Of a DNA stretch of 28,308 nt, positions 3,553-22,084 are shown piece after piece. The position numbers were made by a program, and so were the translations under genes. This DNA comes from a virus: positions 1-28,308 of IMG/VR virus record IMGVR_UViG_3300040751_000568; one strand, written 5' to 3'. Within the stretch, counting starts at the first letter, position 1; each line of letters starts with the position of its first letter. The notes beneath the pieces are model-generated. The model made no database searches. It was not told the origin of the DNA and was given only the letters and a program-made list of their open reading frames with translations.

Positions 3553-6500
3553 ATGGCAAAACAAGATATTAATATTGGTGTAGAGGGTAACGACGGCACC
3601 GGCGATAGTATTAGAGAATCGTTTCGTAAAACCAACGAAAACTTTTCAGAACTATACGCGGTGTTTGGTGTTGGTGGTCAGATTACATTTACAACACTTA
3701 GCGATACACCAGATGAACTTACACCTAATACAGTTCCGTTAGTAAACGATGCTGGTACACTTCTTGGACTTGTAGAGCTTGCAAGTAACAATGCATTAGG
3801 TGGCGGGGCACAGGATACAATTACATTTAGTTATGATATTCCAGGTAAGTTAATAATATCAAGCTCATTTACTAAAGTTAGTGACGACCTTAGTCCAACA
3901 CTCGGAGGGCCTTTAGATGCAGGTGGTTTTGGTATTGCCAATGTTGGTATTAGCACAGTTGAAGCAGAGAGACTTAACACTACCCACGATAATCTAAGTG
4001 GAATAACTATCGACGATCTTGTAATTACAAAGGGCTATGCGGACCAAAGATATATCACATCAGGACTACCCTTAAGAATAGCCGAAGAGCCTACAGGAAA
4101 ATTACATTATACTTGGACAATTAGTAGATATATTGATAGTTCAGTTGAAATTACAAGTTATTATGATGTTAACCAGGCTTTACAATCTGGCGGCCATGGA
4201 TTAGAAAGTGGATCTAATGGTACTGCTATTAAATTTAATGCTGAAGACACAGATCCTAACAATTTAACATCTGGAACAACTTACTACATAAGAGTAATAA
4301 GTCCTACAAGACTTTGGTTGTACACCGAAGCAAATAAAGAATATGCAACAACAGATGTAGAATCAGATGCAAATTCATTTAAAGTTATTCCCTCTGGATC
4401 GATAGCCGCTGACGATGTTCATACTATAGTTGATGCTTCGTTAGATACAACTTTATCAGGTAATTTCTTAAGCGACAACGGCGTTCCAAGAGAAAGTATC
4501 ACTAGACGTCAAGGGGATACAATGACAGGTGAATTATACTTGTCAGATCATCCTGGTGAATTAGCAGGACAAGGAACTCCAAATGGTGTTGAAGATTTAC
4601 AGGCTGCAACTAAATTTTATGTAGATAACACTGCATATAGTTCTCCTGAGGCACTTTTTGTAAGTACCACAGGTGACGACACAATGCAAGGTGTTCCTCC
4701 GGGTAAAGAAGGTACATCATTAACTTATGCATTTAAATCAATTAATGCCGCTGCGGAAAGAGCAGAAGAACTTATTAGAAGTGCTCCTGCAGAGCCTGGC
4801 AACTATATGCAAACACTAACACATACTAGTGGACAAACTGATAGTGTTGTTATCAATGCTGATGTTGAAACTCCGGTTTTTGAACAAGCAAGAAAATTAT
4901 TAGATAACAACAGAGAATATATTTCATCTGAGGTTGTAGCTTATGTGAGCAGTGCATTTCCTAACTTTGCTTATAATGTTGATACATGTAAAAGAGATGT
5001 TGGATTAATTATCGATGCTATTGCTTTAGATATTAATCGTGGATTGACAGCAAACTATCTTACAATACAAGCAGCACAAAGTTATTATTCAGGTGTTAGT
5101 GCTAGAATAGCAATTACATCTCAATTAACTGAAACAGTTGCTGGTATTGTTAAAGCAAGAGATATAGCCGCAGCATGTTTAACAAATGATCTACTGAATC
5201 AAAAGAATATTAGTAGCATTAGTGTTGCTGAAATATCAGAAGTAGTGACAACTACTAATCATGGTTTAACTACTGGCGATATTGTTGTATTTAGAAATGT
5301 TGAAGGTATGGTACAAATTACTGACAACACTAAAAAATATGTAAGAGTAACTGGTGCAAGTAGTTTTGAACTGTACAATGATAGTGCTTTAGAAACTCCA
5401 TACGATACTAGCGCATTTGACGGATACACTGGTGGTGGTATAATTGGTCAAGTGTATCAAATAGAAGAAGACCAATTCCTCGATCTAGGAACAATTTATA
5501 CGATTAATACAACAGGTAATATTACTGTAACAGCAGGCGAAACAATTACTCAAACTGGTAGTGGTGCAACTGGTATAGTTGTTAGTTCAGTAACTAATGG
5601 TTCAACTATTCTTTTACAAACAGTTACTGGTGAATTTAACACAGGTAACGAATTGACAGGAACTGTAAGCGGTGCTTTAGGACCTGACAGTATACCTACA
5701 TCAATTGCTAATGATTTAGATGCTGATTCAAATGCACGAGCAGCTATTAGTGATAAATTTGACCTAGTAACAAATATCATCCAAAATGGGTTAGACGCAG
5801 GTGGAGATATTGTCTATGGTAGCACATATAAAATTGTTGTAACAAATGGTGCAAGCACCTATACAGATCAAACTAATCCAGGCAATACTGATGCATTACC
5901 AGGTAAAGTTATTAGAGGTAAGCGTTCAGAAGCAATAGGACAAATTGTAAGTTTCACAAATGATGTAGGTGCAGAATCTGCAACTGATCCACAGACCGGT
6001 GCAACAGAACCAGGTCCTACAGTATTCCAAGTACACTTATTGAGTGCAAAAGATTTTGAACCTGAAGAGCCATTAGAATACGGTAACTTTGTTAAAAAGA
6101 AACAAGTTAGTATTATGGTAGAAACAGGTATATATGAAGAAGACTATCCAATTCGTCTAAGCAACAATGTGTCATTAAAAGGTGACGAATTTAGACGAGT
6201 AATTATTAAACCTAAGACTGAAACAGATTCAAGAATACCTAGAGTTTCACAGAGTAAATGGGCAAACTTATACTTCTATAGAGATAACGAGTTTGATGGT
6301 CTAACTTTGAACAACGGTGGTACAAATTTCTTCAATCAGGATGGCGTAGCACAAGGTAAGTTTGGTTACCACTATTTGTACAGAGGCGACAAACCACTAA
6401 ACTTAGGACCAGATGTAACTAATGTAGGCTCATATACTACAGCTGCAAACATAGTAAAAGAAAATAAAGACTATATTGTAGAAGAAACAATTGAATATAT

Positions 6501-9500
6501 TACACAACAATATCCTTCTTTAGTGTATGATTCTGCTAAATGTAGAAGAGATACAAAACTTATTGTAGATGCTCTTGTAAATGACTTAAGAAATGGCGGA
6601 GAGGTAAGAACCCTAGAAGTTCAAGGTAGCTATCAAACTTTACTAGCAGGTGAAGGCGATTACTTAACACAGTTAGGAGATAGTTCACAGGAAGTTGCAA
6701 CTGAGGCTGCTATACAAAATATAAGCCAATTAACAAGTGCTTTACTTACAGGGGTTGCTCCAAATTATACTACAGGATCTTACACCGCAGGTAGTGCAAG
6801 TGTGTTAGCAGCCGAACCTGTAGATATATCATTAGGTTCAGGCGAATCGGGTACAGCTACAGTTGTTGGACAGTTAATTGATAAAATTACATTTGTATTC
6901 GATGTAGAATATAACCCACCAAAACGCAATGATGCACTAGATGTGTTCTTAATGAGTGATGCTACTATTATTCGTAATGTTACTGTACAAGGACATGGCG
7001 GATTTATGTGTGTTCTTGATCCGCAAGGACAGGTTCTTACCAAATCACCATACATTCAAACAGCATCAAGTTTCTCAAAGAGTATAAATGCAAAAACATT
7101 TGCAGGCGGTATGTATGTTGATGCATATGTTGGTAACTTGCCTGCAAGAATTACAGGACAACCACAAAGTGCAGATAAATTTAAACTTACAGTACAAAGT
7201 AATGTAGGTGAAGGATTAAGATTGCGTCCACCAGAACTACCTTGTCCATTCTATGTAGAAGGTAGACGATATCAGGTTAATGCTATTTCAGATTATGACC
7301 AAGGACAGGGTACTGCAACAATTTATCTCGATGCTAACAGTAATGACGGTGACGGATATGATGTAGAACAATTTGACGATTCAAGTGTTGAAAGAGATAT
7401 CTTCCTTCAAACAGCTGGTAACAGAAGTATGTTGGCAAACGACTTTACTCAAATTAATGACTTAGGTTATGGATTAGTTGTTAACAATGCTGCGTTCTCA
7501 GAGCAAGTGTCAACATTTACATATTACTGTCAAACAGCGATGTATGCTAATAATGGTTCTGAAATTAGAGGACTTAACTGTTCAAATGGTTATGGTAAGT
7601 TTGGTCTAATCGCAGAAGGTGCTGATCCGAACGAGATTCCAGACCAGGTTACGCTAAAGTATGACCAAGTGCAACCAGCAAAAGCATTTACCAGTGGAGC
7701 ATATACAAACGCATTTGAAGATCCAAGTATTACAGTTACAGACTTAAAAAGACCTCCCACTGCAAACAGTATTATTACAGTTTATCACCCGGGAGCAGTT
7801 GGACCTTTATCTGGGACATACAATTATGTAATTTCAACAGTTACTAACTTGAGTGACAGCGATGGTGATGGTGTAGAAGGTGAATCAGGAGATGTTGTTG
7901 TTACTGGTGTTAACGCACTAGATGCAGCCACACTAGCTGGTACAACTGCTTCTGCAGCTACATTCAACGGAGTGGCTACTAACGCATCAGCATCGGGTAC
8001 TGGATTAACAGTAAATGTAACAGTTACTGGTGTTGGAGTTATTGGTGGCGGTGGATCAGCAGTTGTTGCTGTAGTTCAGCCAGGTACAGGATATGCAGCA
8101 GGAGAAACTATTACTATCAGTGGTAGTAACTTAGGCGGAAGTTCTCCAACTAATGATTTAACAATTGATGTTGATACAATCTTTGGTACTACAGCAGGCG
8201 TACACAACAACACAGTTTATAAATTAGATTTAAAAGCAGATGACGTAGCGGCGGATGATTTCTTTGGCCAGTTGCAAGACACTGTAACTGACGGAACTAT
8301 TATTGAATATAGAGATAACTTCAATATGATATTTGATAATGTTAGCGATCCTTCAGGACTTGTAACAAGACCAAGTACAGCCATTAACTTCGATGAAAGT
8401 GATAATACAACATACAGAAGTATTGCATTTAGTAACAAAGATTCATTTAGTCAAGACTTAGCAAGCAATGAAATTTTAACTACATTTGAAGTTGGTTTTG
8501 ATTTTGTTGATATGGAAGTTAATGTAACAAAACTAGCAGGTGGTTATGGGTCAGCACAGGGTGATACAAAACTAGCTATTCAACCATTAACGGCAAGTCT
8601 TACAAATATATATGACGACACTGAGCGTGTGACTAGAGACAGCAGTACTCAAGCAGGACTATATCCAGGAGATTTGGGTTATAGTGCTAGTGGTGGTATG
8701 CGTTTCCTTTGGGATGGTAAAACACACGGTATTACAGAATACAGAGCAATTAGTGAAATTGCAGTGACGTCTAGTATAACTGTTGTTGCTGGCGAAACTC
8801 TCACACAAGCTAATACAGGTGCAACAGCAGTAGCTCTTACAAATGGTGCTGCTTCTACTATAGAAGTGTATAGTATAACAGGTACATTTAATACAACAGA
8901 TCAACTTACAGGTAGCACAAGTGGAGCACTAGGAGCATCTAGTGTACCAACAAGTATTACAAATGATACATGGGCATTTATTGAATTTGTCGATGTTGCA
9001 GGTACAAATATTAACAGCAGCTACGGCGGCACTGGACTTAACAGTGCAGTTCCGGCAGCTGAAAGGGTTGTTACAGCAGGTCTTCCTGCTGCAAGTACAG
9101 GTGAAATTACTATTGCTATTTCACTGTTAAGAGCAACAGGACATGACTTTACACAAATTGGTACAGGATCGTTTAACGATTCAAACTATCCAAATGTTAT
9201 TTTAGGTGAACCAGTTAATCCGTTGGCTGATTTCTATACAGATGCTGACACAGCAACAACAGCTCAAGTCTGGGAAAGACGCAAAGGTAGAGTGTTCTTT
9301 GTAAGCACGGACCAGGATGGATTCTTCCGTGTTGGTAAGTTCTTCAGTGTAGACCAAGCAACAGGTGATATTACATTTGCTGGTGAAATTGGACTTTCTA
9401 ATGCTAACGCACTTGGCTTTAAGAAAGGTGTTACAATTAATGAATTCTCAGCAGACGATAGTTTTGCAGATGATTCAGGACAGGCTGTTCCAACAGAAAA

Positions 9501-11796
9501 AGCAATCGGAGGATACCTAAACAGAGCATTAGGATTTAATGTTAAATCGGGCGCACAGATTCCCGGGTCATCAAATAGAATTGGTCCTGGTTTCCTTCCA
9601 TTGAACGGATTAAGTCCTATGGAAGGCAACTTGAATATGAATAGTAACAATATTCAAAACCTTGCTTTACCAGGTAGCGGTAGCGATGCAGCCAACAAAA
9701 ATTATGTAGATGACAATGCAAACGCATTTGCTACAGTTAAACAATTAAGAGATACAACAGTTGACACTGTTGGTGCAAATGAACTTGCAGTATTCAGTGG
9801 TAAGCAAATTATTTACACTGAACCAGAGACAGGTGGAACATTTATTGTAGGTGACACTATTCAAAACGATCCAAGTGCTCCATCAGCTACTGGTGTAGTT
9901 GTTGATATTGAAACGCTTACAGATGAGCAATTTGGGTCGATTCGTAAAATTGTTTACACAGTTGGATCAGGAACATTTGACCCTGACAATGATACAATTT
10001 ATGAAAATGGTGGTTCTGCTCAAGCAGTTGGATTAACCACATCACTACAAGCAGATGTTGGCGGTCCATTCCCAGAAATCACACATGCATCAGAATCTAC
10101 AGCTAGTGATATTAATGTTACTATTACAAGAACAGCTGCTGGAGCCGAATATAATTTACAATATGAAGCAAACAGTCTTATAAATGCTGATGTAAACAGT
10201 GCGGCGGCTATTGCACAAAGTAAACTTGCAATGAACACAGCAGGCACTAGAGCAAATGCTGCTGGCATAACACAAGCAGACTTAGGTGTAGCAACATTTA
10301 AGAATACTGAATTTACACACACCAGTGGTTTTGTAGAACTACAAACAAGCTCAAGCACATCAACAGGTATTGCACCTGGTAAACTACAACATCAGGCAAC
10401 AGACACTGTGCTAGGTAGAAGTGCTGCTGGTGATGGTGCTGTAAGTGCAATTAGTTTTGACACAGTTCTTGATGAAGGTGGCGCACTACGAGATAGTGAA
10501 TTTGGTGCATTTGGTGCTAGTGGCGACGAAGTATTAATTAGAACAGCGGCGGCAACATACGATACTATTGAAGTTACAACAAGTGGCGAGAACAGCAAAA
10601 TTGTTAAGACACTAAGTGATGGTGCTATTAGAGCAACAGGACTTGTGTTGGGTGGTTCTGATAGTTATGAAGTTGCAACAACTACAGGATCAGGAACAAC
10701 ACTAACAGTCAAAACACCAGGTCAAGCAGTGGTATTTAATGCTACTGGTACAACCAGTGCAAGTTTAGTCACTAAGTTCCCAGGAAGTATTGACATAGGT
10801 GATACTACACAAACTACCGAAAGTAATTTCCAGGGTTCATCATCTTATGCAAGCGAAGGATTTGTATCAACTGATTGGGTTTACACAAACTTTATTGAAG
10901 CTATATCTGAAAGAGATGCTGCAAGCACAGGTATTGCACTAGGTGAAACAGGTGCATTTGCTGAAGATGCTGCAGATGTAATTGCATTCGTTACTGGTGG
11001 TAATGTTGAAGCAAGAGTTACAACTACTGGAATAGAAACTGATGCTATTCAAAGTTTAACTTCAAATACCGATCTTGCTCTAAGCGGTAATGGAACAGGA
11101 AATGTTAATATCACTGACAGTTTAGATGTTGATACAATTACAGCATACAGTGGTACAAACACAAACCTTACACTAGCAGGTAAAGGTTCAGGTGTTGTTA
11201 GCGTTAGTACTGGATTAACTGTAGCTGGAACCACTACCCTAAATGGAAATTTAGATATTGGTAATGCTACAACAGACACTGTAACATTTACAGCAAGACT
11301 TGATAGTAATATTGAACCAGATAGCACAGCAAACAATAGAAACTTAGGTGCTAGTGGTAGACAGTTTAATACAGTGTATGCAAGTGTATTTGAAGGCACA
11401 GCAACATCAGCACAATATGCTGACTTGGCAGAGAATTACTTGGCAGATACAGGTTACGAGCCAGGAACTGTACTAGTGTTCGGTGGTGATGCAGAGGTTA
11501 CAACTACAAATACAAAAGGCAATACCAGAGTTGCTGGCGTAGTATCGACTAATCCTGCACACTTAATGAATTCAAATCTAGAAGGTGAACATGTAGCAGC
11601 AATAGCACTGCAAGGTCGTGTTCCGTGTAAAGCACTAGGTCGTGTAGCCAAAGGTGACATGCTAGTTACAAGTGCCATACCGGGTTATGCTATAGTTAAT
11701 AACACTCCGGGAGTCGGTAGTGTTATAGGTAAAGCAGTTGGCGATAAACTCGATGACGGCAAAGGCACTGTTGAAGTTGTAGTAGGGAGAGTATAA
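3553..11796 (+). CDS. Giant tail fibre / adhesin-like virion protein (2747 aa)
   Basis: Fills 8.2 kb. The N-terminal 30 residues (INIGVEGNDGTGDSIRESF, then NFSEL) are shared with the proteins at 11796 and 13452 and probably anchor fibres to the baseplate. Two phage-fibre motifs of the type TMTG..., then DAATK-FYVD, occur near residues 322-359 and 2020-2055. Residues about 880-910 (SLKGDEFRRVIIKP) and 1015 onward form a mixed globular region. Two internal duplications are visible: residues 446-497 with 965-1016, and 657-721 with 1742-1805. A glycine-rich beta module with GTGYAAGETITISG lies near 1515. The C-terminal 130 residues (from AQYADLAENY, near 2619) look like a compact terminal domain, of the kind seen at the ends of phage fibres and in some cases linked to trimerisation or self-cleavage. 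RBS TTGGAGC precedes the ATG. Sugar or receptor specificity cannot be told. Confidence 0.85.
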   Translation: MAKQDINIGVEGNDGTGDSIRESFRKTNENFSELYAVFGVGGQITFTTLSDTPDELTPNTVPLVNDAGTLLGLVELASNNALGGGAQDTITFSYDIPGKLIISSSFTKVSDDLSPTLGGPLDAGGFGIANVGISTVEAERLNTTHDNLSGITIDDLVITKGYADQRYITSGLPLRIAEEPTGKLHYTWTISRYIDSSVEITSYYDVNQALQSGGHGLESGSNGTAIKFNAEDTDPNNLTSGTTYYIRVISPTRLWLYTEANKEYATTDVESDANSFKVIPSGSIAADDVHTIVDASLDTTLSGNFLSDNGVPRESITRRQGDTMTGELYLSDHPGELAGQGTPNGVEDLQAATKFYVDNTAYSSPEALFVSTTGDDTMQGVPPGKEGTSLTYAFKSINAAAERAEELIRSAPAEPGNYMQTLTHTSGQTDSVVINADVETPVFEQARKLLDNNREYISSEVVAYVSSAFPNFAYNVDTCKRDVGLIIDAIALDINRGLTANYLTIQAAQSYYSGVSARIAITSQLTETVAGIVKARDIAAACLTNDLLNQKNISSISVAEISEVVTTTNHGLTTGDIVVFRNVEGMVQITDNTKKYVRVTGASSFELYNDSALETPYDTSAFDGYTGGGIIGQVYQIEEDQFLDLGTIYTINTTGNITVTAGETITQTGSGATGIVVSSVTNGSTILLQTVTGEFNTGNELTGTVSGALGPDSIPTSIANDLDADSNARAAISDKFDLVTNIIQNGLDAGGDIVYGSTYKIVVTNGASTYTDQTNPGNTDALPGKVIRGKRSEAIGQIVSFTNDVGAESATDPQTGATEPGPTVFQVHLLSAKDFEPEEPLEYGNFVKKKQVSIMVETGIYEEDYPIRLSNNVSLKGDEFRRVIIKPKTETDSRIPRVSQSKWANLYFYRDNEFDGLTLNNGGTNFFNQDGVAQGKFGYHYLYRGDKPLNLGPDVTNVGSYTTAANIVKENKDYIVEETIEYITQQYPSLVYDSAKCRRDTKLIVDALVNDLRNGGEVRTLEVQGSYQTLLAGEGDYLTQLGDSSQEVATEAAIQNISQLTSALLTGVAPNYTTGSYTAGSASVLAAEPVDISLGSGESGTATVVGQLIDKITFVFDVEYNPPKRNDALDVFLMSDATIIRNVTVQGHGGFMCVLDPQGQVLTKSPYIQTASSFSKSINAKTFAGGMYVDAYVGNLPARITGQPQSADKFKLTVQSNVGEGLRLRPPELPCPFYVEGRRYQVNAISDYDQGQGTATIYLDANSNDGDGYDVEQFDDSSVERDIFLQTAGNRSMLANDFTQINDLGYGLVVNNAAFSEQVSTFTYYCQTAMYANNGSEIRGLNCSNGYGKFGLIAEGADPNEIPDQVTLKYDQVQPAKAFTSGAYTNAFEDPSITVTDLKRPPTANSIITVYHPGAVGPLSGTYNYVISTVTNLSDSDGDGVEGESGDVVVTGVNALDAATLAGTTASAATFNGVATNASASGTGLTVNVTVTGVGVIGGGGSAVVAVVQPGTGYAAGETITISGSNLGGSSPTNDLTIDVDTIFGTTAGVHNNTVYKLDLKADDVAADDFFGQLQDTVTDGTIIEYRDNFNMIFDNVSDPSGLVTRPSTAINFDESDNTTYRSIAFSNKDSFSQDLASNEILTTFEVGFDFVDMEVNVTKLAGGYGSAQGDTKLAIQPLTASLTNIYDDTERVTRDSSTQAGLYPGDLGYSASGGMRFLWDGKTHGITEYRAISEIAVTSSITVVAGETLTQANTGATAVALTNGAASTIEVYSITGTFNTTDQLTGSTSGALGASSVPTSITNDTWAFIEFVDVAGTNINSSYGGTGLNSAVPAAERVVTAGLPAASTGEITIAISLLRATGHDFTQIGTGSFNDSNYPNVILGEPVNPLADFYTDADTATTAQVWERRKGRVFFVSTDQDGFFRVGKFFSVDQATGDITFAGEIGLSNANALGFKKGVTINEFSADDSFADDSGQAVPTEKAIGGYLNRALGFNVKSGAQIPGSSNRIGPGFLPLNGLSPMEGNLNMNSNNIQNLALPGSGSDAANKNYVDDNANAFATVKQLRDTTVDTVGANELAVFSGKQIIYTEPETGGTFIVGDTIQNDPSAPSATGVVVDIETLTDEQFGSIRKIVYTVGSGTFDPDNDTIYENGGSAQAVGLTTSLQADVGGPFPEITHASESTASDINVTITRTAAGAEYNLQYEANSLINADVNSAAAIAQSKLAMNTAGTRANAAGITQADLGVATFKNTEFTHTSGFVELQTSSSTSTGIAPGKLQHQATDTVLGRSAAGDGAVSAISFDTVLDEGGALRDSEFGAFGASGDEVLIRTAAATYDTIEVTTSGENSKIVKTLSDGAIRATGLVLGGSDSYEVATTTGSGTTLTVKTPGQAVVFNATGTTSASLVTKFPGSIDIGDTTQTTESNFQGSSSYASEGFVSTDWVYTNFIEAISERDAASTGIALGETGAFAEDAADVIAFVTGGNVEARVTTTGIETDAIQSLTSNTDLALSGNGTGNVNITDSLDVDTITAYSGTNTNLTLAGKGSGVVSVSTGLTVAGTTTLNGNLDIGNATTDTVTFTARLDSNIEPDSTANNRNLGASGRQFNTVYASVFEGTATSAQYADLAENYLADTGYEPGTVLVFGGDAEVTTTNTKGNTRVAGVVSTNPAHLMNSNLEGEHVAAIALQGRVPCKALGRVAKGDMLVTSAIPGYAIVNNTPGVGSVIGKAVGDKLDDGKGTVEVVVGRV
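4888..5043 (+). repeat. Fibre internal duplication A, copy 1
   Basis: Encodes residues 446-497 of the giant fibre (ARKLLDNNREYISSEVV ... CKRDVGLIIDAIALDINRG). It aligns without gaps over 52 codons with copy 2 at 6445-6600; the shared core is C-K/R-RD-x-x-LI-x-DA. Confidence 0.7.
5521..5715 (+). repeat. Fibre internal duplication B, copy 1
   Basis: Encodes residues 657-721 (ITVTAGETITQTGSGAT ... LTGTVSGALG ... PTSIAND). It aligns with copy 2 at 8776-8967 with one residue of length difference. Confidence 0.7.
6445..6600 (+). repeat. Fibre internal duplication A, copy 2
   Basis: Encodes residues 965-1016 (ANIVKENKDYIVEETIEYI ... CRRDTKLIVDALVNDLRNGG), the same 52-codon length as copy 1 at 4888-5043. 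Confidence 0.7.
8776..8967 (+). repeat. Fibre internal duplication B, copy 2
   Basis: Encodes residues 1742-1805 (ITVVAGETLTQANTGAT ... LTGSTSGALG ... PTSITND), matching copy 1 at 5521-5715. Confidence 0.7.
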
Positions 11797-12644
11797 TGGC
11801 TAAGAAAATTGTAAACATTGGTACAAGTGCAAACAAAGGAGACGGAGATCCTTTACGCACAGCATTTGATAAAATCAATGATAACTTTGATGAACTATAT
11901 GCGGCAACTACACTAGACTTAGACAGTATAGGTTCTAACATGATCCCTACTACTGACGGTGCTTATGCACTAGGTAGTGCAAGTAAACAGTGGAGCGACT
12001 TGTATGTAAAAGATTTTATCTATCTAGGCAACGCTAGATTACAATCTGATGTGCAAGGAAATCTTGTAATAAATGGTGCTAGTATTAAAGTAGATGGTGA
12101 TGTTAGTGGTAGTATTTTTGCAGATGATAGCACTTTACTTGTAGATGCAATAAATGGTAAAATTGTTGGTCCTGTGGATGCAAATATAACAAAAACAGGA
12201 TCACTTGTAATATCAGGATCTACAGTAAACATGGTATCAACAGCTGGTATTATTGGTATTTCTGCATTTGATACTGCAAGCATGTCTGCAACTGGTATAG
12301 TAAGTCTTACATCAAGTGGTTCAAACATAGATATTTCTGCTAACAATAATGTAGAAATAGTAGCATCTACAGTTGATATTAGATCAAGTTTAAATGTAAC
12401 TGGAGGTATTACTGGAGATGTAACTGGTAGTGTGTTTGCTGATGACTCAGCTGTAATAGTTGATGGCATAACTGGGGCAGTAACACCTTCTGAATTTAAG
12501 CCACCAATGCTTACACAAGCACAAATAGATGCACTAACACCTGTAGAAGGACTAATGGTGTACAACACAACAACTGGTAAGTTCCAAGGTTATGCTGCAG
12601 ATGCTAATAATGATAGCACAACTGGTTGGGCAGATTTACACTAA
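11796..12644 (+). CDS. Tail fibre protein with shared N-terminal anchor
   Basis: A 282-aa protein whose ATG overlaps the giant fibre's stop codon by one base. The N-terminus (VNIGTSANKGDGDPLRTAFD ... NFDELY) is homologous to that of the giant fibre and of the 13452 gene. After it come ALGSASKQWSDLYVKDF, a motif common at fibre shafts, and a beta-rich serine/threonine/asparagine repeat region. It has two copies of a 23-residue module (GDVSGSIFADDSTLLVDAIN type) at 12096-12164 and 12414-12482. The C-terminal EGLMVYNTTTGKFQGYA is typical of the tip of phage tail fibres. No enzyme motif is seen. It is probably a trimeric accessory fibre acting in host recognition. Confidence 0.8.
   Translation: MAKKIVNIGTSANKGDGDPLRTAFDKINDNFDELYAATTLDLDSIGSNMIPTTDGAYALGSASKQWSDLYVKDFIYLGNARLQSDVQGNLVINGASIKVDGDVSGSIFADDSTLLVDAINGKIVGPVDANITKTGSLVISGSTVNMVSTAGIIGISAFDTASMSATGIVSLTSSGSNIDISANNNVEIVASTVDIRSSLNVTGGITGDVTGSVFADDSAVIVDGITGAVTPSEFKPPMLTQAQIDALTPVEGLMVYNTTTGKFQGYAADANNDSTTGWADLH
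12096..12164 (+). repeat. 69-bp fibre module, copy 1
   Basis: Codes for 23 residues around GSIFADDSTLLVDAINGKI. Copies of exactly the same length lie at 12414-12482 (same gene) and 13276-13344 (next gene). Confidence 0.75.
12414..12482 (+). repeat. 69-bp fibre module, copy 2
   Basis: Codes for the variant GSVFADDSAVIVDGITGAV, 23 residues, in the same gene as copy 1 and closer to its C-terminus. Confidence 0.75.
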
Positions 12645-13451: not shown

Positions 13452-14156
13452 ATGGCAATACAATCAATTAACATAGGTAGCATAGCAAACGACGGAACAG
13501 GCGATGATCTTCGTGAAGCATTTAATAAAGTAAATGCAAACTTTACAGATTTAGATTCTAAACTATCAATAGCAGAAGGTTCAGAAGGTGAAAACTTAGG
13601 ACTAGGCGAAGGTGTTTTTGCACAAAAGAGTGATAATACACTACAGTTTAGAAGTATTGTTGCAGGTTCAAACATTAGTTTAAGTGGCGGTGGTAATAGT
13701 ATTACTATCAGCGGCGATGCTGCAATGAAACAATTAATTGTTGTAAGTGACAGCGGAAGTGTTGTGTTAGGCACAGGAAATCAAACACTTCGTATACAAG
13801 GCGGTGTAGGTGTTAGCACACGAGTAACAAGTGAAGATGTGTTTATTGATGTCGACGGACAGGATTTAATTGAAACAGACACTACACCTGTACTAGGTGG
13901 AACACTTGATGCAAATGCGTTTAATATTATAAATGCAAATAGTATTACTGCACAGTCATTTGTGGGTAATTTAACAGGGTTAGTAAACAATATAGATGTT
14001 AGTCGACTAGATCCTTTCTTAAACGGTTTTGATTTTAATACTATACTAAGGTCTGCAGATAGTTTTTATGAATGGCTAGTATATAATCAAGATGTCGATT
14101 TTGGAACATTTGTTTTACCTGAAGATACAGAAGTTGACCTTGGAGCTATTGCTTAA
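13452..14156 (+). CDS. Tail fibre protein with shared N-terminal anchor
   Basis: A 234-aa protein starting after a CGGAGAT ribosome site. The N-terminus INIGSIANDGTGDDLREAFN followed by VNANFTDL is the cleanest version of the anchor motif shared with the giant fibre and the 11796 gene. The middle part (SGGGNSITISG, then LRIQGGVGVST) is beta-rich, followed by a TPVLGGTLDANAFNIINAN motif that also resembles a segment of the giant fibre (SPTLGGPLDAGGFGIANVG, near residue 115). The C-terminal 50 residues (LDPFLNGFDFNTILRSADS) look globular. It is probably a short fibre or an adaptor. The last codons run close to the late promoter of the next gene. Confidence 0.78.
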   Translation: MAIQSINIGSIANDGTGDDLREAFNKVNANFTDLDSKLSIAEGSEGENLGLGEGVFAQKSDNTLQFRSIVAGSNISLSGGGNSITISGDAAMKQLIVVSDSGSVVLGTGNQTLRIQGGVGVSTRVTSEDVFIDVDGQDLIETDTTPVLGGTLDANAFNIINANSITAQSFVGNLTGLVNNIDVSRLDPFLNGFDFNTILRSADSFYEWLVYNQDVDFGTFVLPEDTEVDLGAIA

Positions 14157-17577: not shown

Positions 17578-18135
17578 ATGCTTATGAAAACAGACTCTCT
17601 AGGAATACCACGATTTAGTAACCGCGATCTTATCGATATGATCTATACAGGTCATGCGGACAAAGTCCATGTAGTATTATGTGATGCAAACGACGATGTA
17701 GACCGGTTCAATGCCGCTATGGAAGAACAAGGCCTTAGCAAACTACAAAAGTATATCCCATTAGATGTAGATCAACAGACTTTTGACGGTGTATGTCAAA
17801 GTGAATGGTTCATGCCTGATGAATATAAAGAGATTAATCCAAATAAATGGTTAGAAGCAAAACTAATGGAAAAACTACAAATACAAGATCCTGTGGCTTT
17901 GCGTGATACACAAGAATGGATCCGTGTAACCGAAGAACTTACAGAATACTTTGGTCGTGGTATGTATCCATTATTACAGTATATGATATATCTTGTAGAC
18001 TTCATGCGTGAGAATGATATTGTATGGGGTGTAGGACGTGGATCAAGTGTGGCAAGTTATGTGTTGTATTTGATAGGTGTACATAGAATAAATTCAATCC
18101 AGTTTGACCTGGATTGGAGAGAGTTCTTAAGATAA
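17578..18135 (+). CDS. DnaE/PolC-like fragment without catalytic aspartates
   Basis: A 185-aa protein. Its last 45 residues (LVDFMRENDIVWGVGRGSS, then VASYVLYLIGVHRINSIQFD) match the C-family DNA polymerase III alpha palm segment. In the bacterial enzyme this segment reads GPGRGSxAGSLVAY...DPLxFDLLFERFLN and contains the nucleotide-binding GS motif. The phage gene stops at WREFLR, just before the family's catalytic PDFDVDF. The N-terminal part (SLGIPRFSNRDLIDMIYTG) resembles the linker before the palm. No remaining polymerase sequence follows in any frame; a strong ribosome site (AAGGAGG) and a new gene begin within 28 bases. It cannot polymerise DNA alone. It may bind host polymerase parts, primer or nucleotide, or be a re-used fold (inference). 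The start could be ATG 17578 or 17584. Confidence 0.7.
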   Translation: MLMKTDSLGIPRFSNRDLIDMIYTGHADKVHVVLCDANDDVDRFNAAMEEQGLSKLQKYIPLDVDQQTFDGVCQSEWFMPDEYKEINPNKWLEAKLMEKLQIQDPVALRDTQEWIRVTEELTEYFGRGMYPLLQYMIYLVDFMRENDIVWGVGRGSSVASYVLYLIGVHRINSIQFDLDWREFLR

Positions 18136-18500: not shown

Positions 18501-18899
18501 TTGCCTAAAATTAAAGGACAATTACGAGCTATAAAAAACAGAGTACTAGTTTGTGACATGCACTTTGGTGAACAGAAAACTGCTAGTGGGTTGATTATTA
18601 AAGATGACAATGGATCAACTCGCGGCATTTATCCCCGTTGGGGAAAAGTTTATGGCAAAGGTCCAGAAAACAATGACGACTATAATGTTGGAGACTGGAT
18701 CCTAGTTGAACACGGTAGATGGACACGAGGTGTCGAACTAGACGATGGCACAGGCGAAAAAACTGTACGCATGGTTGAAGCAGAAAGTATACTAGCATAT
18801 TCAGAAGAAAAACCAAGCGATGTTCAAATAGGTGGAGAATATGCCGACGGTGAACATGCTACCGTTGACCCACAATCATTTATTAACCCACAACATTAA
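18501..18899 (+). CDS. 31: gp31/GroES-like co-chaperonin
   Basis: A 132-aa GroES-fold protein that would replace host GroES on the GroEL ring for folding of the major capsid protein, as T4 gp31 does. The GroES-like features are the N-terminal strand AIKNRVLVCD, a long mobile loop with HFGEQKTASGLI (residues 21-33), a GKVYGKGPEN turn, YNVGDWILVEHGRWTRG, and a C-terminal strand MVEAESILAY. The start codon is TTG at 18501 behind AAGGAGAA (18487-18494); no ATG fits upstream. About 20 residues longer than T4 gp31, with an acidic tail rich in E and D. It lies in a run with MazG. Confidence 0.8.
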   Translation: MPKIKGQLRAIKNRVLVCDMHFGEQKTASGLIIKDDNGSTRGIYPRWGKVYGKGPENNDDYNVGDWILVEHGRWTRGVELDDGTGEKTVRMVEAESILAYSEEKPSDVQIGGEYADGEHATVDPQSFINPQH

Positions 18900-18908
18900 G
18901 AGGCTATC

Positions 18909-19313
18909 TTGACCCAAGTAGATTTAAACAAATACAAAGATTTCGTAGAAGAAGTAACCAGTGACGAAAGCAACACAGTTGCTGCTATGTCACATAGGAT
19001 GATAGAGATTTCTGAAAAAGTAAACCCTTCTCTATTACTAACTGGAGCCATAGGCATAGCAAGCGAAGGAGGCGAATTTGCAGAAATTGTTAAAAAATGT
19101 ATATTCCAAGGCAAACCAATGGATGACGAAACTGTCTTTCATTGCAAACGAGAACTTGGCGATATTATGTGGTATTGGATTAATAGTTGCCGGGCATTGG
19201 ATCTCGATCCTAATGAAGTCGTAGCAGAGAATGTAAACAAACTTAAGGCTCGTTATCCAGGTGGTGAGTTTGATGTACACTATTCAGAAAACCGTAAAGA
19301 AGGAGATTTGTAA
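18909..19313 (+). CDS. mazG: MazG nucleotide pyrophosphohydrolase
   Basis: A 134-aa single-domain MazG. The metal-binding pattern is visible as EGGEFAEIVKK (ExxE type) and ELGDIMWYW (ExxD type), with the closing NKLKARYPGGEF motif. It hydrolyses nucleoside triphosphates to monophosphates. In marine phages MazG has been proposed to act on (p)ppGpp or to recycle host nucleotides; substrate cannot be read here. The start is TTG 18909 behind AAGAGG (18898-18903). The stop is immediately followed by the ATG of the BI-1 gene (TAAATG), so the two are coupled. Confidence 0.9.
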   Translation: MTQVDLNKYKDFVEEVTSDESNTVAAMSHRMIEISEKVNPSLLLTGAIGIASEGGEFAEIVKKCIFQGKPMDDETVFHCKRELGDIMWYWINSCRALDLDPNEVVAENVNKLKARYPGGEFDVHYSENRKEGDL

Positions 19314-19982
19314 ATGAATACAATTACTGAAACCCGTGTAGCCTACGATGAAGGCTTACGAAACTTTATGATCAACATGTACAACCACACAGCCGCAGGT
19401 TTGGGTGTAAGTGGAGTTGTAGCATGGTTAACTTACTCAACTGGCGCACTATACGCAATGGGCAGTCTAATGTGGCTGTTTATGCTTGCTCCATTGGGCA
19501 TGATTCTTTACTACAGTTTCGCAGGTCAAAACTGGAGCAAGGACACACTAACAAAATTTTATTACATCTTTACAGCAGTAATGGGTGTAAGTCTAAGTAC
19601 AATCTTTGCTGTCTACACAGCCTACAGTATTGTACAAGTATTCTTTATAACAGCCGCAACATTTGCGAGTGCTAGTTTGTACGGATATACGACCAAGAAA
19701 GACCTCACAAGTTTTGGTAGTTTTCTAATCGTAGGACTTATCGGTATTGTCATTGCTAGTGTTGTTAACTTATTCTTACAAAGCACAGGAATGCAGTTTG
19801 TAATTAGTATACTAGGCGTTCTTATCTTTACAGGTCTTACAGCCTGGGACACTCAAAATGCCAAAACAATGTATCTACAGTATCAAGACAGTAGTATGGG
19901 CATTCGTTTTGCATTAAGTTTATATCTAAACTTTATAAATCTATTTCAAATGCTATTGCATCTTATTGGCAATAGAGAATAA
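19314..19982 (+). CDS. Bax inhibitor-1 / YccA-family membrane protein
   Basis: A 222-aa protein with about seven hydrophobic helices (near residues 27-48, 50-68, 80-101, 105-124, 134-155, 160-177 and 196-218). The C-terminal signature is that of the BI-1 (TMBIM) family: TGLTAWDTQNAKTMY, then SLYLNFINLFQMLL. In bacterial members such as YetJ two aspartates in the last two helices control a pH-dependent calcium leak. Here the first is kept (Asp179) but the second is Asn206, where LYLDFINLF is usual. It lies in the inner membrane, directly coupled to mazG, with AAGGAG (19300-19305) upstream. Possible roles are ion leak, modulation of host FtsH-type proteolysis as for YccA, or timing of lysis; all are inference. 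Confidence 0.88.
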   Translation: MNTITETRVAYDEGLRNFMINMYNHTAAGLGVSGVVAWLTYSTGALYAMGSLMWLFMLAPLGMILYYSFAGQNWSKDTLTKFYYIFTAVMGVSLSTIFAVYTAYSIVQVFFITAATFASASLYGYTTKKDLTSFGSFLIVGLIGIVIASVVNLFLQSTGMQFVISILGVLIFTGLTAWDTQNAKTMYLQYQDSSMGIRFALSLYLNFINLFQMLLHLIGNRE

Positions 19983-19991
19983 GAGGTTAAC

Positions 19992-20570
19992 TTGAATTAT
20001 GAAAAAGACCGCAAAATACTTGCGGATGTAGACGGTGTCTTGCTCGATTGGGAATCAGCATTTGATGCTTGGATGAATGAAAACGGGGGTGCTATAAAAA
20101 ACCCTTATGAATATAAACAAACTATAAGATATGGTATAGATAAAGACCGTGCAGATAGAGCAGTGAAGCAATTTAATGAAAGTGCTTGGATCGGGTATCT
20201 TAAACCATTAAGAGACAGCGTAAGTGCATTAGAGTATCTTGCTTCAAAACATTGGCATATTGAATGTATCACTAGCCTTAGTAAAGACCACTGGGCTGGA
20301 GAATTAAGACGATCAAACCTTAAGAAGTGGTTTGGACAAACTATTCGTAGATGTCAATGTATTGAAACCGGCGGCGATAAAGATGAATATTTACAAGAGT
20401 TTGAACCAGGACATTGGTGGATTGAAGACAAGCCTGAAAACTGTATTGCAGGTCTAAACGCAGGACATCGTCCAATTCTTATAGATCATCCTTATAACCA
20501 AGATTTTGAACACCCTGATGTAGTGCGTGTTAAGAATTGGCAAGAAATCATTGAATTAATTGCAGAATAG
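19992..20570 (+). CDS. HAD-superfamily phosphatase (5'-nucleotidase-like)
   Basis: A 192-aa protein. HAD motif I is DVDGVLLDW (Asp12 nucleophile, Asp14 acid/base). Motif II is probably ITSLSKD (Ser/Thr after a hydrophobic strand). Motif IV is WWIEDKPENC, where Asp replaces the usual GDxxxD by the ED pair seen in the 5'(3')-deoxyribonucleotidase group. Motif III is likely a lysine in the GDKDEYL area. The likely role is dephosphorylation of deoxynucleoside monophosphates, fitting the nearby mazG and thyX, but the substrate is not proven by sequence. It uses a TTG start at 19992 behind AAGAGG (19981-19986); the ATG 7 bases later is out of frame. Confidence 0.72.
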   Translation: MNYEKDRKILADVDGVLLDWESAFDAWMNENGGAIKNPYEYKQTIRYGIDKDRADRAVKQFNESAWIGYLKPLRDSVSALEYLASKHWHIECITSLSKDHWAGELRRSNLKKWFGQTIRRCQCIETGGDKDEYLQEFEPGHWWIEDKPENCIAGLNAGHRPILIDHPYNQDFEHPDVVRVKNWQEIIELIAE

Positions 20571-20627: not shown

Positions 20628-21173
20628 TTGGCGACACACGGTATGATTGACTTGGAAACACTTGGCGTAGAGCCTGATAGTGTTATTATGACATTAGGCG
20701 CTATTAAGTTTGATCCATTTTCTGATGCAGAGCCGCATACTCCGTTATATTTGCGTGGCGATGTAGAAGAACAATCAGAAGACCTTGGAAGAAGTATTGA
20801 TGAAAATACACTTGCTTGGTGGGGAAGACAGTCACAATCAATTCAAGACGAAGCATTTGGAGATCATTCAGATAGAGTTACAACTGCTGAAATGACAAGG
20901 CAACTTAACAAGTGGTGTGTAGGATTAGATTATATTTGGTGTCAAGGTCCAACATTTGACTTTGTAATACTACAGCATTTATACAAAAATATTGGTAAGC
21001 CTGCTCCATGGAACTATTGGCAAATTAGAGACAGTCGTACATTGTTTGCTATGATGCCCCAAGATCCACGCAGAGCAATACAAGAAGAGCTACATAATGC
21101 ACTAGCTGACTGTTATTATCAGGCTAAGTGTGTACAACAATCATATAAACACTTTGGAGTAAAGGCAAGATGA
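20628..21173 (+). CDS. dexA: DexA-like 3'-5' exonuclease (DEDDh)
   Basis: A 181-aa DnaQ-fold exonuclease. The acidic metal residues are Asp8 and Glu10 (MIDLETLG), Asp111 (GPTFDFVIL), and His156/Asp161 (HNALADCYYQ), which gives the DEDDh order. The spacing and short length resemble T4 DexA, which degrades single-stranded DNA. The likely role is breakdown of host DNA or trimming of ends during replication and recombination. The start is TTG 20628 with TAGGAG at the right distance. The stop overlaps the gp44 ATG by four bases (ATGA). First gene of the operon under a consensus early promoter. Confidence 0.85.
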   Translation: MATHGMIDLETLGVEPDSVIMTLGAIKFDPFSDAEPHTPLYLRGDVEEQSEDLGRSIDENTLAWWGRQSQSIQDEAFGDHSDRVTTAEMTRQLNKWCVGLDYIWCQGPTFDFVILQHLYKNIGKPAPWNYWQIRDSRTLFAMMPQDPRRAIQEELHNALADCYYQAKCVQQSYKHFGVKAR

Positions 21174-22084
21174 AAGAATTATGGGTAGAAAAGTACCGTC
21201 CTAAAACAGTAGACGGTTATGTGTTTCGAGATGAAGCACAACGATCACAAGTAAAAAACTGGATCAAAGACAAAACAATCCCGCACTTGTTGTTTTCAGG
21301 CAATGCTGGTATTGGCAAGACAACACTTGCAAAATTATTATTTAATGAATTAGAAATTAATGATTTAGATGTGCTAGAAATTAACGCATCACGAACAAAC
21401 TCAGTAGATGACGTTCGTGATAAGATTGTTAACTTTGTACAAATGATTCCGTTTGGTGACTTTAAGGTAGTGTTGCTAGATGAGGCTGATTATTTGAGTC
21501 CAAACGCACAGGCTGCTTTGCGTGGTGTTATGGAGGAGTATCATACGACAGCAAGGTTTATTTTAACTTGTAACTATCCTAACAAAATTATTCCAGCAAT
21601 ACATAGTCGCTGTCAAGGTTTCCATATTGCTAAGATTGACCAAACAGAGTTTACAGCAAGAGTTGCAGAGATTCTTATTACAGAAGGTGTAACTCCGGAC
21701 TTGGATACGCTAGACACATATGTAAAAGCAACCTACCCAGACTTGCGTAAGTGTATCAACATGGTGCAAATGAATGTACAGGACAACAGTTTGCTAAAAC
21801 CTAATGAAGGCGACACAGGAGAAACTGATTGGAAACTGGATATGGTAGAACTGTTTAAAGCAGGCAAGATCCAAGATGCTCGTAAACTGCTATGTGGCGC
21901 AGTGCGTCCAGAAGAAATGGAAGAAATTTATCGTTGGTTATATGACAACATTGAACTGTTCGGTGATGAAGAAAAACAAGATACCGCAGTACTAACGATT
22001 AAACAAGGATTAGTAGACCATACACTGGTTGTGGATCCAGAAATTAACTTAGCGGCAACGCTGATTAGATTAGCGAGGTTATAG
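21170..22084 (+). CDS. 44: Sliding-clamp loader ATPase subunit, gp44-like
   Basis: A 304-aa AAA+ ATPase of the RFC small-subunit type that loads the phage sliding clamp. Seen in order: the N-terminal [16 protein letters not shown] box, Walker A GNAGIGKT (44-51), Walker B VLLDEAD (101-107), sensor 1 LTCNYPNKI (132-140) and the arginine-finger SRC (146-148). The C-terminal part is helical, as in the clamp-loader collar. The length is close to T4 gp44 (319 aa). Coupled to dexA in front and to the ferredoxin gene behind (one-base overlap, TAGTG). The usual partner, gp62, is not in the neighbouring position, where the ferredoxin gene lies. Confidence 0.93.

Follow-up and report, generated by a model that had tools for sequence, protein, structure and literature searches.

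The BI-1 gene and its genomic setting

The window analyzed here, meaning the whole stretch of DNA under study, is an IMG/VR virus record of 28,308 bases. The open reading frame at 19314-19982 on the + strand starts with ATG and encodes a 222-residue membrane protein of the Bax inhibitor-1 (BI-1)/TMBIM family. It matches Pfam PF01027 (Bax1-I) with an E-value of 1.3e-56 and 192.1 bits (cut-off 34.1) over positions 1-206 of the 207 in the profile. An AlphaFold2 model based on a 56-row alignment (mean pLDDT 85.9) predicts a helical bundle, for which YetJ is the nearest fold. More specifically, YetJ chains are the best structural matches of the model (VIA Z 12.1-15.8, versus 7.2 for the next unrelated fold), and Foldseek aligned the two with an E-value of 4e-4; the rmsd is 5-6 Å, which makes the match approximate. 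The protein thus lies above the curated Pfam cut-off and is predicted to adopt the helical BI-1 fold.

The gene is located in an island of cargo genes on the + strand, bordered by two backbone genes. The left border is a gp31/GroES-like co-chaperonin (18501-18899; phrog_931, E 1.2e-12; phrog_3188, E 7e-06) and the right border a gp44-like clamp loader (21170-22084; phrog_168, E 7e-76; 54% identity to Pseudomonas jumbo phages). Between them lie a MazG-like pyrophosphohydrolase directly upstream of BI-1 (18909-19313; Pfam MazG, E 8.1e-08; phrog_229, E 9e-46), BI-1 itself, an NT5C-like deoxynucleotidase (19992-20570; Pfam NT5C, E 1.1e-09) and an Rv2179c-like exonuclease (20628-21173; Pfam PF16473, E 2.2e-35). 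The backbone resembles that of the jumbo phages Paride and Atu_ph07: both gp44 and a small gene resembling DNA polymerase III alpha have their nearest relatives among Pseudomonas jumbo phages of the Paride/PA5oct group, and gp44 also matches Agrobacterium phage Atu_ph07. In Paride and Atu_ph07, the gene order is a polymerase fragment, a hypothetical gene, a short ORF or head-morphogenesis gene, and gp44. The gap before gp44 measures 13 nt in Paride and is short, with one small ORF, in Atu_ph07; the corresponding interval of the window is filled by MazG, BI-1, NT5C and the exonuclease. The polymerase-like piece (17578-18135) encodes 185 residues similar to a portion of the DNA polymerase III alpha NTPase domain, is far too short for a polymerase, and lies close to the gp31-like and gp44 genes in the window as well as in both of these phages.

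Viral loci were also fetched with gp44. In the 69 that contained both borders, BI-1 was present in 13, MazG in 24, and both in 10. One of these viral genomes (L239, 4295-6912) has the island order of the window, MazG-NT5C-Exo-gp44, with BI-1 absent, and provides a clean empty-site comparison. Because BI-1 occurs in only 13 of the bordered loci and is missing from this one, it represents optional cargo.

The mazG stop codon (TAA, 19311-19313) directly abuts the BI-1 ATG, a junction from which translational coupling and a joint role with mazG had been proposed. BI-1 carries its own strong Shine-Dalgarno motif, AAGGAG, within the mazG end (19300-19305, +; 8 nt before the ATG), and such a motif precedes almost all chosen phage BI-1 starts. 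Among the 80 loci fetched with BI-1, mazG lies directly upstream in 32 (~40%), whereas 39 have no mazG match and 2 more lack upstream room. In the gp44-fetched set, mazG accompanies BI-1 in 10/13 loci, versus 14/56 loci without BI-1 (Fisher p 0.0008, relatedness uncorrected). The pairing is therefore real, here and elsewhere, but a joint role is not required, since each gene occurs without the other: mazG is a frequent, dispensable neighbor of BI-1.

Elsewhere in the window, the products of 11796-12644 and 13452-14156 both match phrog_677, a baseplate wedge tail-fiber connector, over N-termini of ~38 residues, as if a shared anchor carried different tips. A 2747-residue protein (3553-11796), whose only Pfam match is E1_FCCH (residues 564-634), is probably a tail or adhesin protein, and 2117-2674 encodes a superoxide dismutase-like protein (phrog_1975).

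The di-aspartyl dyad and the distribution of Asn206

The C-terminal helices of phage BI-1 carry the motifs GLTAWDTQ, with Asp179 (codon GAC, 19848-19850, +), and SLYLNFINLF, with Asn206 (codon AAC, 19929-19931, +). Alignment with YetJ (PDB 4pgr) by phmmer pairs Asp179 with Asp171 and Asn206 with Asp195. The same search returned PDB entries 6nq8 and 6nq9, which are the D171E and D195E mutants of YetJ, so that both residues correspond to experimentally studied dyad positions. Neither motif is locally shifted, and a register shift concealing an aspartate is ruled out by the alignment around both residues. Asp179 is invariant in the 102 aligned rows. The YetJ-type di-aspartyl dyad is hence incomplete in the phage protein, with the first aspartate present and Asn206 in the second position. 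This bears out the earlier note, which had described a phage-borne BI-1 protein with Asp179 retained and an Asp-to-Asn change at 206.

That BI-1 is uncommon in phages, as had also been supposed, holds for annotated records, of which 14/50,697 match, including a single annotated isolate (Salicola phage SCTP-2), but does not extend to uncultured marine viruses, since one scan of IMG/VR returned 119 matching stretches. PHROGs yielded no match to phage BI-1. Most of the annotated-phage matches (Listeria, Enterococcus, Salmonella, fecal clones) are without annotation, and three are labelled UNVERIFIED; these were given no weight. A literature search of incomplete coverage found no paper on BI-1 in phages. 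The BI-1 family itself is known; PHROGs contain no phage members of it, and annotated phage records hardly any. In another phage background (L064, 5986-7546), BI-1 is found beside a NifU-like Fe-S assembly protein.

Among the viral loci fetched with the BI-1 protein, Asn206 is present in 67 of the 78 with a readable residue, and Asp179 in all of them. Viral forms with Asp206 occur only at greater distance (<54% identity). One of the search peptides (NFINLFQM) contained the asparagine, which raised a concern of search bias. An artefactual excess of Asn206 is countered by a different search peptide, present in 49/67 clade-A loci (the viral clade of the window, described below), and by the independent set found via the gp44 clamp loader, without using BI-1, in which 13/13 proteins have Asn206.

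Asn206 is also widespread in bacteria. Using the codon-level pattern LYL[D/N]FxNxF, we surveyed 385 sampled Alphaproteobacteria genomes and found the motif in 277, with the Asn version in 46 (~17% of motif-bearing genomes). Carriers include Azospirillum, Methylobacterium, Chthonobacter, alphaproteobacterium BAL199 and a Rhodobacteraceae strain (G004), in which the Asn copy is the sole Bax1-I match of the genome. On the protein tree, at least 12 changes between Asp and Asn occurred at column 206, and even close sister proteins differ there (Asp in L087, Asn in L093). Because the residue is common in chromosomes and has switched repeatedly, Asn206 alone does not mark a phage-specific locked state. 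The earlier note had read Asn206 as a departure from the usual motif that may leave the phage protein locked or re-used; the altered dyad stands, but the asparagine is not by itself a phage peculiarity. The note had named Asn being common among active bacterial members as a finding that would speak against its reading, and as regards frequency this objection largely holds. Furthermore, the Asn/Asp variation in Alphaproteobacteria cautions against treating the di-aspartyl motif as a signature that holds throughout.

Phylogeny, selection and hallmarks of the viral clade

The BI-1 tree was calculated from the 102 aligned rows with column 206 left out and was midpoint-rooted. The viral clade of the window, here called clade A, comprises 34 dereplicated rows (SH-aLRT 100), all with Asn206. 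Its codon varies synonymously (AAC in 21, AAT in 13), while the residue is always Asn. A further 7 viral rows form a second clade, in which Asp predominates; it falls with alphaproteobacterial rows and occurs in a different genome setting, marked by genes for primase and ribonucleotide reductase. Most members of this second group (L068-L080) keep both aspartates, and L070 has the primase and ribonucleotide reductase genes nearby.

Selection on phage BI-1 is strongly purifying, with dN/dS values of 0.03-0.07 between the window gene and its nearest relatives. Cellular homologs share ~45-55% identity with the phage protein over the whole length (best 55%). Midpoint rooting of the tree does not single out a donor of the clade A gene; judging from these nearest cellular matches, its origin is presumably bacterial and probably alphaproteobacterial.

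Beyond Asn206, two features set clade A apart. The first is a short N-terminal tail, with 14 residues ahead of the conserved Leu15 (19314-19355, +). The median length is 14 in clade A, compared to 23-24 in cells and 20 in other viral rows; the p value of the rank test (4e-15) is overstated, as clade A is one lineage. The second is Asn73 (codon AAC, 19530-19532, +), the likely equivalent of YetJ Arg60. This mapping is uncertain, because phmmer places the Arg run of YetJ as an insertion, the register is loose where TM2 ends, and the pairing was obtained by ungapped extension from the aligned stretch. Column 73 is basic in 39/60 cellular rows and in 0/34 clade-A rows; it is Asn in 28/34 clade-A rows and in 13/13 of the BI-1 genes fetched via gp44. 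Cellular Asn206 forms keep a basic residue at this column in 19/22 cases, so that clade A is more than another Asn206 form of the cellular kind. The same count rules out the idea that Asn206 is compensated in cells by loss of the basic TM2 residue, for which a test on independent pairs was powerless. No acidic residues gained beside 179 or 206 were found in clade A, and acidic shifts were seen at 77 and 192. Further fixed signature residues of the clade are T26, W74, F82, Y83, A120 and A183. On the alignment, the short tail and the lack of a basic residue at the likely Arg60 column distinguish clade A better than Asn206 does.

BI-1 proteins are found across life, and their role in bacteria is poorly understood. 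With strong purifying selection and a fixed Asn at the second dyad position, clade A constitutes a natural mutant series, and it poses the question whether the conserved role of BI-1 is ion leak or protease modulation.

Candidate functions and comparison with known systems

With the gene, its membrane fold, its cargo status and the purifying selection on it all demonstrated, phage BI-1 is best explained as a functional homolog carried as optional cargo in uncultured marine jumbo-type phages. Regarding its mechanism, we tentatively favor, at somewhat less than even confidence, modulation of host FtsH in the manner of YccA and give less credit to a pH-gated calcium leak. Every step beyond a BI-1 membrane protein under selection is one that we infer. 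The protein would insert in the host inner membrane and engage FtsH, with or without HflKC, like E. coli YccA, and in the infected cell would delay the breakdown of membrane and phage proteins. It would function with an incomplete di-aspartyl pH sensor, reduced to the equivalent of Asp171, and any pH-gated calcium leak would be expected to be slight or altered. The incomplete dyad, the shortened tail and the strong purifying selection suggest that the protease branch fits better than the ion branch. YccA inhibits FtsH, and no ion transport has been shown for it (PMC9379554); TMBIM5, for its part, binds AFG3L2, an FtsH homolog, and keeps it in check (PMC9379554). The shortened tail may make phage BI-1 a poor FtsH substrate, comparable to YccA11: with 8 residues removed from the hydrophilic region at its N-terminus, this variant escapes degradation although its interaction with FtsH and HflKC persists (PMC7876416).

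Several observations temper the FtsH reading. The phage protein scores 45 bits against the NCBIfam YccA model NF007765, far below the cut-off of 353, and by score falls outside this equivalog. The shorter tail arose once, in a single clade, and may reflect the usual compaction of phage genes, and Asn206 is common to many chromosomal copies and provides no evidence for a phage-specific mode. The invariance of Asp179 in the 102-row set suggests a residual function linked to protons or ions. In four related phage records, possibly fragments, a search for FtsH or Band-7 (HflKC) homologs found none, so no partner is co-encoded there. FtsH recognizes its substrates by tail length, with a threshold of ~20 residues; this value was not used as evidence here. 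A more specific version, in which clade A is a phage-adapted, FtsH-resistant BI-1 that the ~9-residue-shorter tail and the lost Asp195 and Arg60 partners have turned into a stable FtsH inhibitor, appears improbable. If true, a host FtsH substrate and pH sensor would have become a membrane analogue of lambda CIII.

Among the alternatives, a leak for cations or calcium whose gating has changed, the gate at the Asp171 equivalent being unlatched and the pore less pH-dependent or constitutively leaky, is conceivable but on balance unlikely. Such a pore could change membrane energetics during infection. The invariant Asp179, the predicted YetJ-like fold and the absence from clade A of Asp195 and of any basic residue in column 73 are consistent with it, as contacts among Arg60, Asp171 and Asp195 position TM2 for gating in YetJ (PMC7349521). 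However, the correspondence of column 73 to Arg60 depends on the ungapped extension, and the common cellular Asn forms, mostly with their basic residue (19/22), indicate that Asn alone is tolerated in cells. Moreover, human Asp213, the Asp195 equivalent, is reported to be necessary for BI-1 peptide flux (PMC7349521), and a TMBIM5 double dyad mutant resembles the knock-out (PMC9379554), which together would point to reduced rather than increased flux.

Rather doubtful, too, and given still less weight, is a plain duplicate of the host BI-1, an extra membrane-stress protein with an unchanged mechanism. The natural occurrence of the Asn form in Alphaproteobacteria and the whole-length identity to cellular homologs would fit a duplicate, as would the requirement of Brucella BrBI, whose loss impairs membrane homeostasis and viability (PMC7876416). 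The clade-specific short tail and the fixed signature residues suggest adaptation over simple copying. That BI-1 and MazG form one module holding the host in a productive state is very unlikely despite the TAA|ATG junction and the enrichment described above, given the separate Shine-Dalgarno motif, the many mazG loci without BI-1, and the second-clade and SCTP-2 loci (the latter treated below) without a mazG neighbor.

Compared with known systems, phage BI-1 and YetJ (PDB 4pgr, 6nq8, 6nq9), the best structural match, have in common the BI-1 fold and the Asp171 equivalent; the phage protein differs in having Asn for Asp195 and Asn at the likely Arg60 column, at ~22-28% identity in structural alignments. 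E. coli YccA belongs to the same Pfam family, and its NCBIfam model weakly matches phage BI-1, but the phage protein falls far below the YccA cut-off, its tail is shorter than that of the cellular alphaproteobacterial homologs, and contact with FtsH is putative. Chromosomal BI-1 proteins of Alphaproteobacteria (Azospirillum, Methylobacterium) are the closest cellular relatives, many with the same Asn, whereas their tails are ~9 residues longer and their Asn forms are mostly basic at column 73. The cytomegalovirus US12 family and the giant-virus BI-1 relatives are also virus-borne and have the same fold, but show ~11-23% identity and infect eukaryotes. In Salicola phage SCTP-2, an isolated jumbo phage, gene 332 (L315, 3105-3776; 294582-295253), annotated as hypothetical, is a BI-1 homolog that has lost the second Asp as in the window. 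It differs in having neither canonical Asp, with Glu at the Asp171 position (YETQQ) and Ser rather than Asn at the second (LYLSMINIF), and in its ~31% identity over half the length. Gene 332 lends independent support to the view that phages can do without the second Asp, and it offers a culturable system for phage BI-1.
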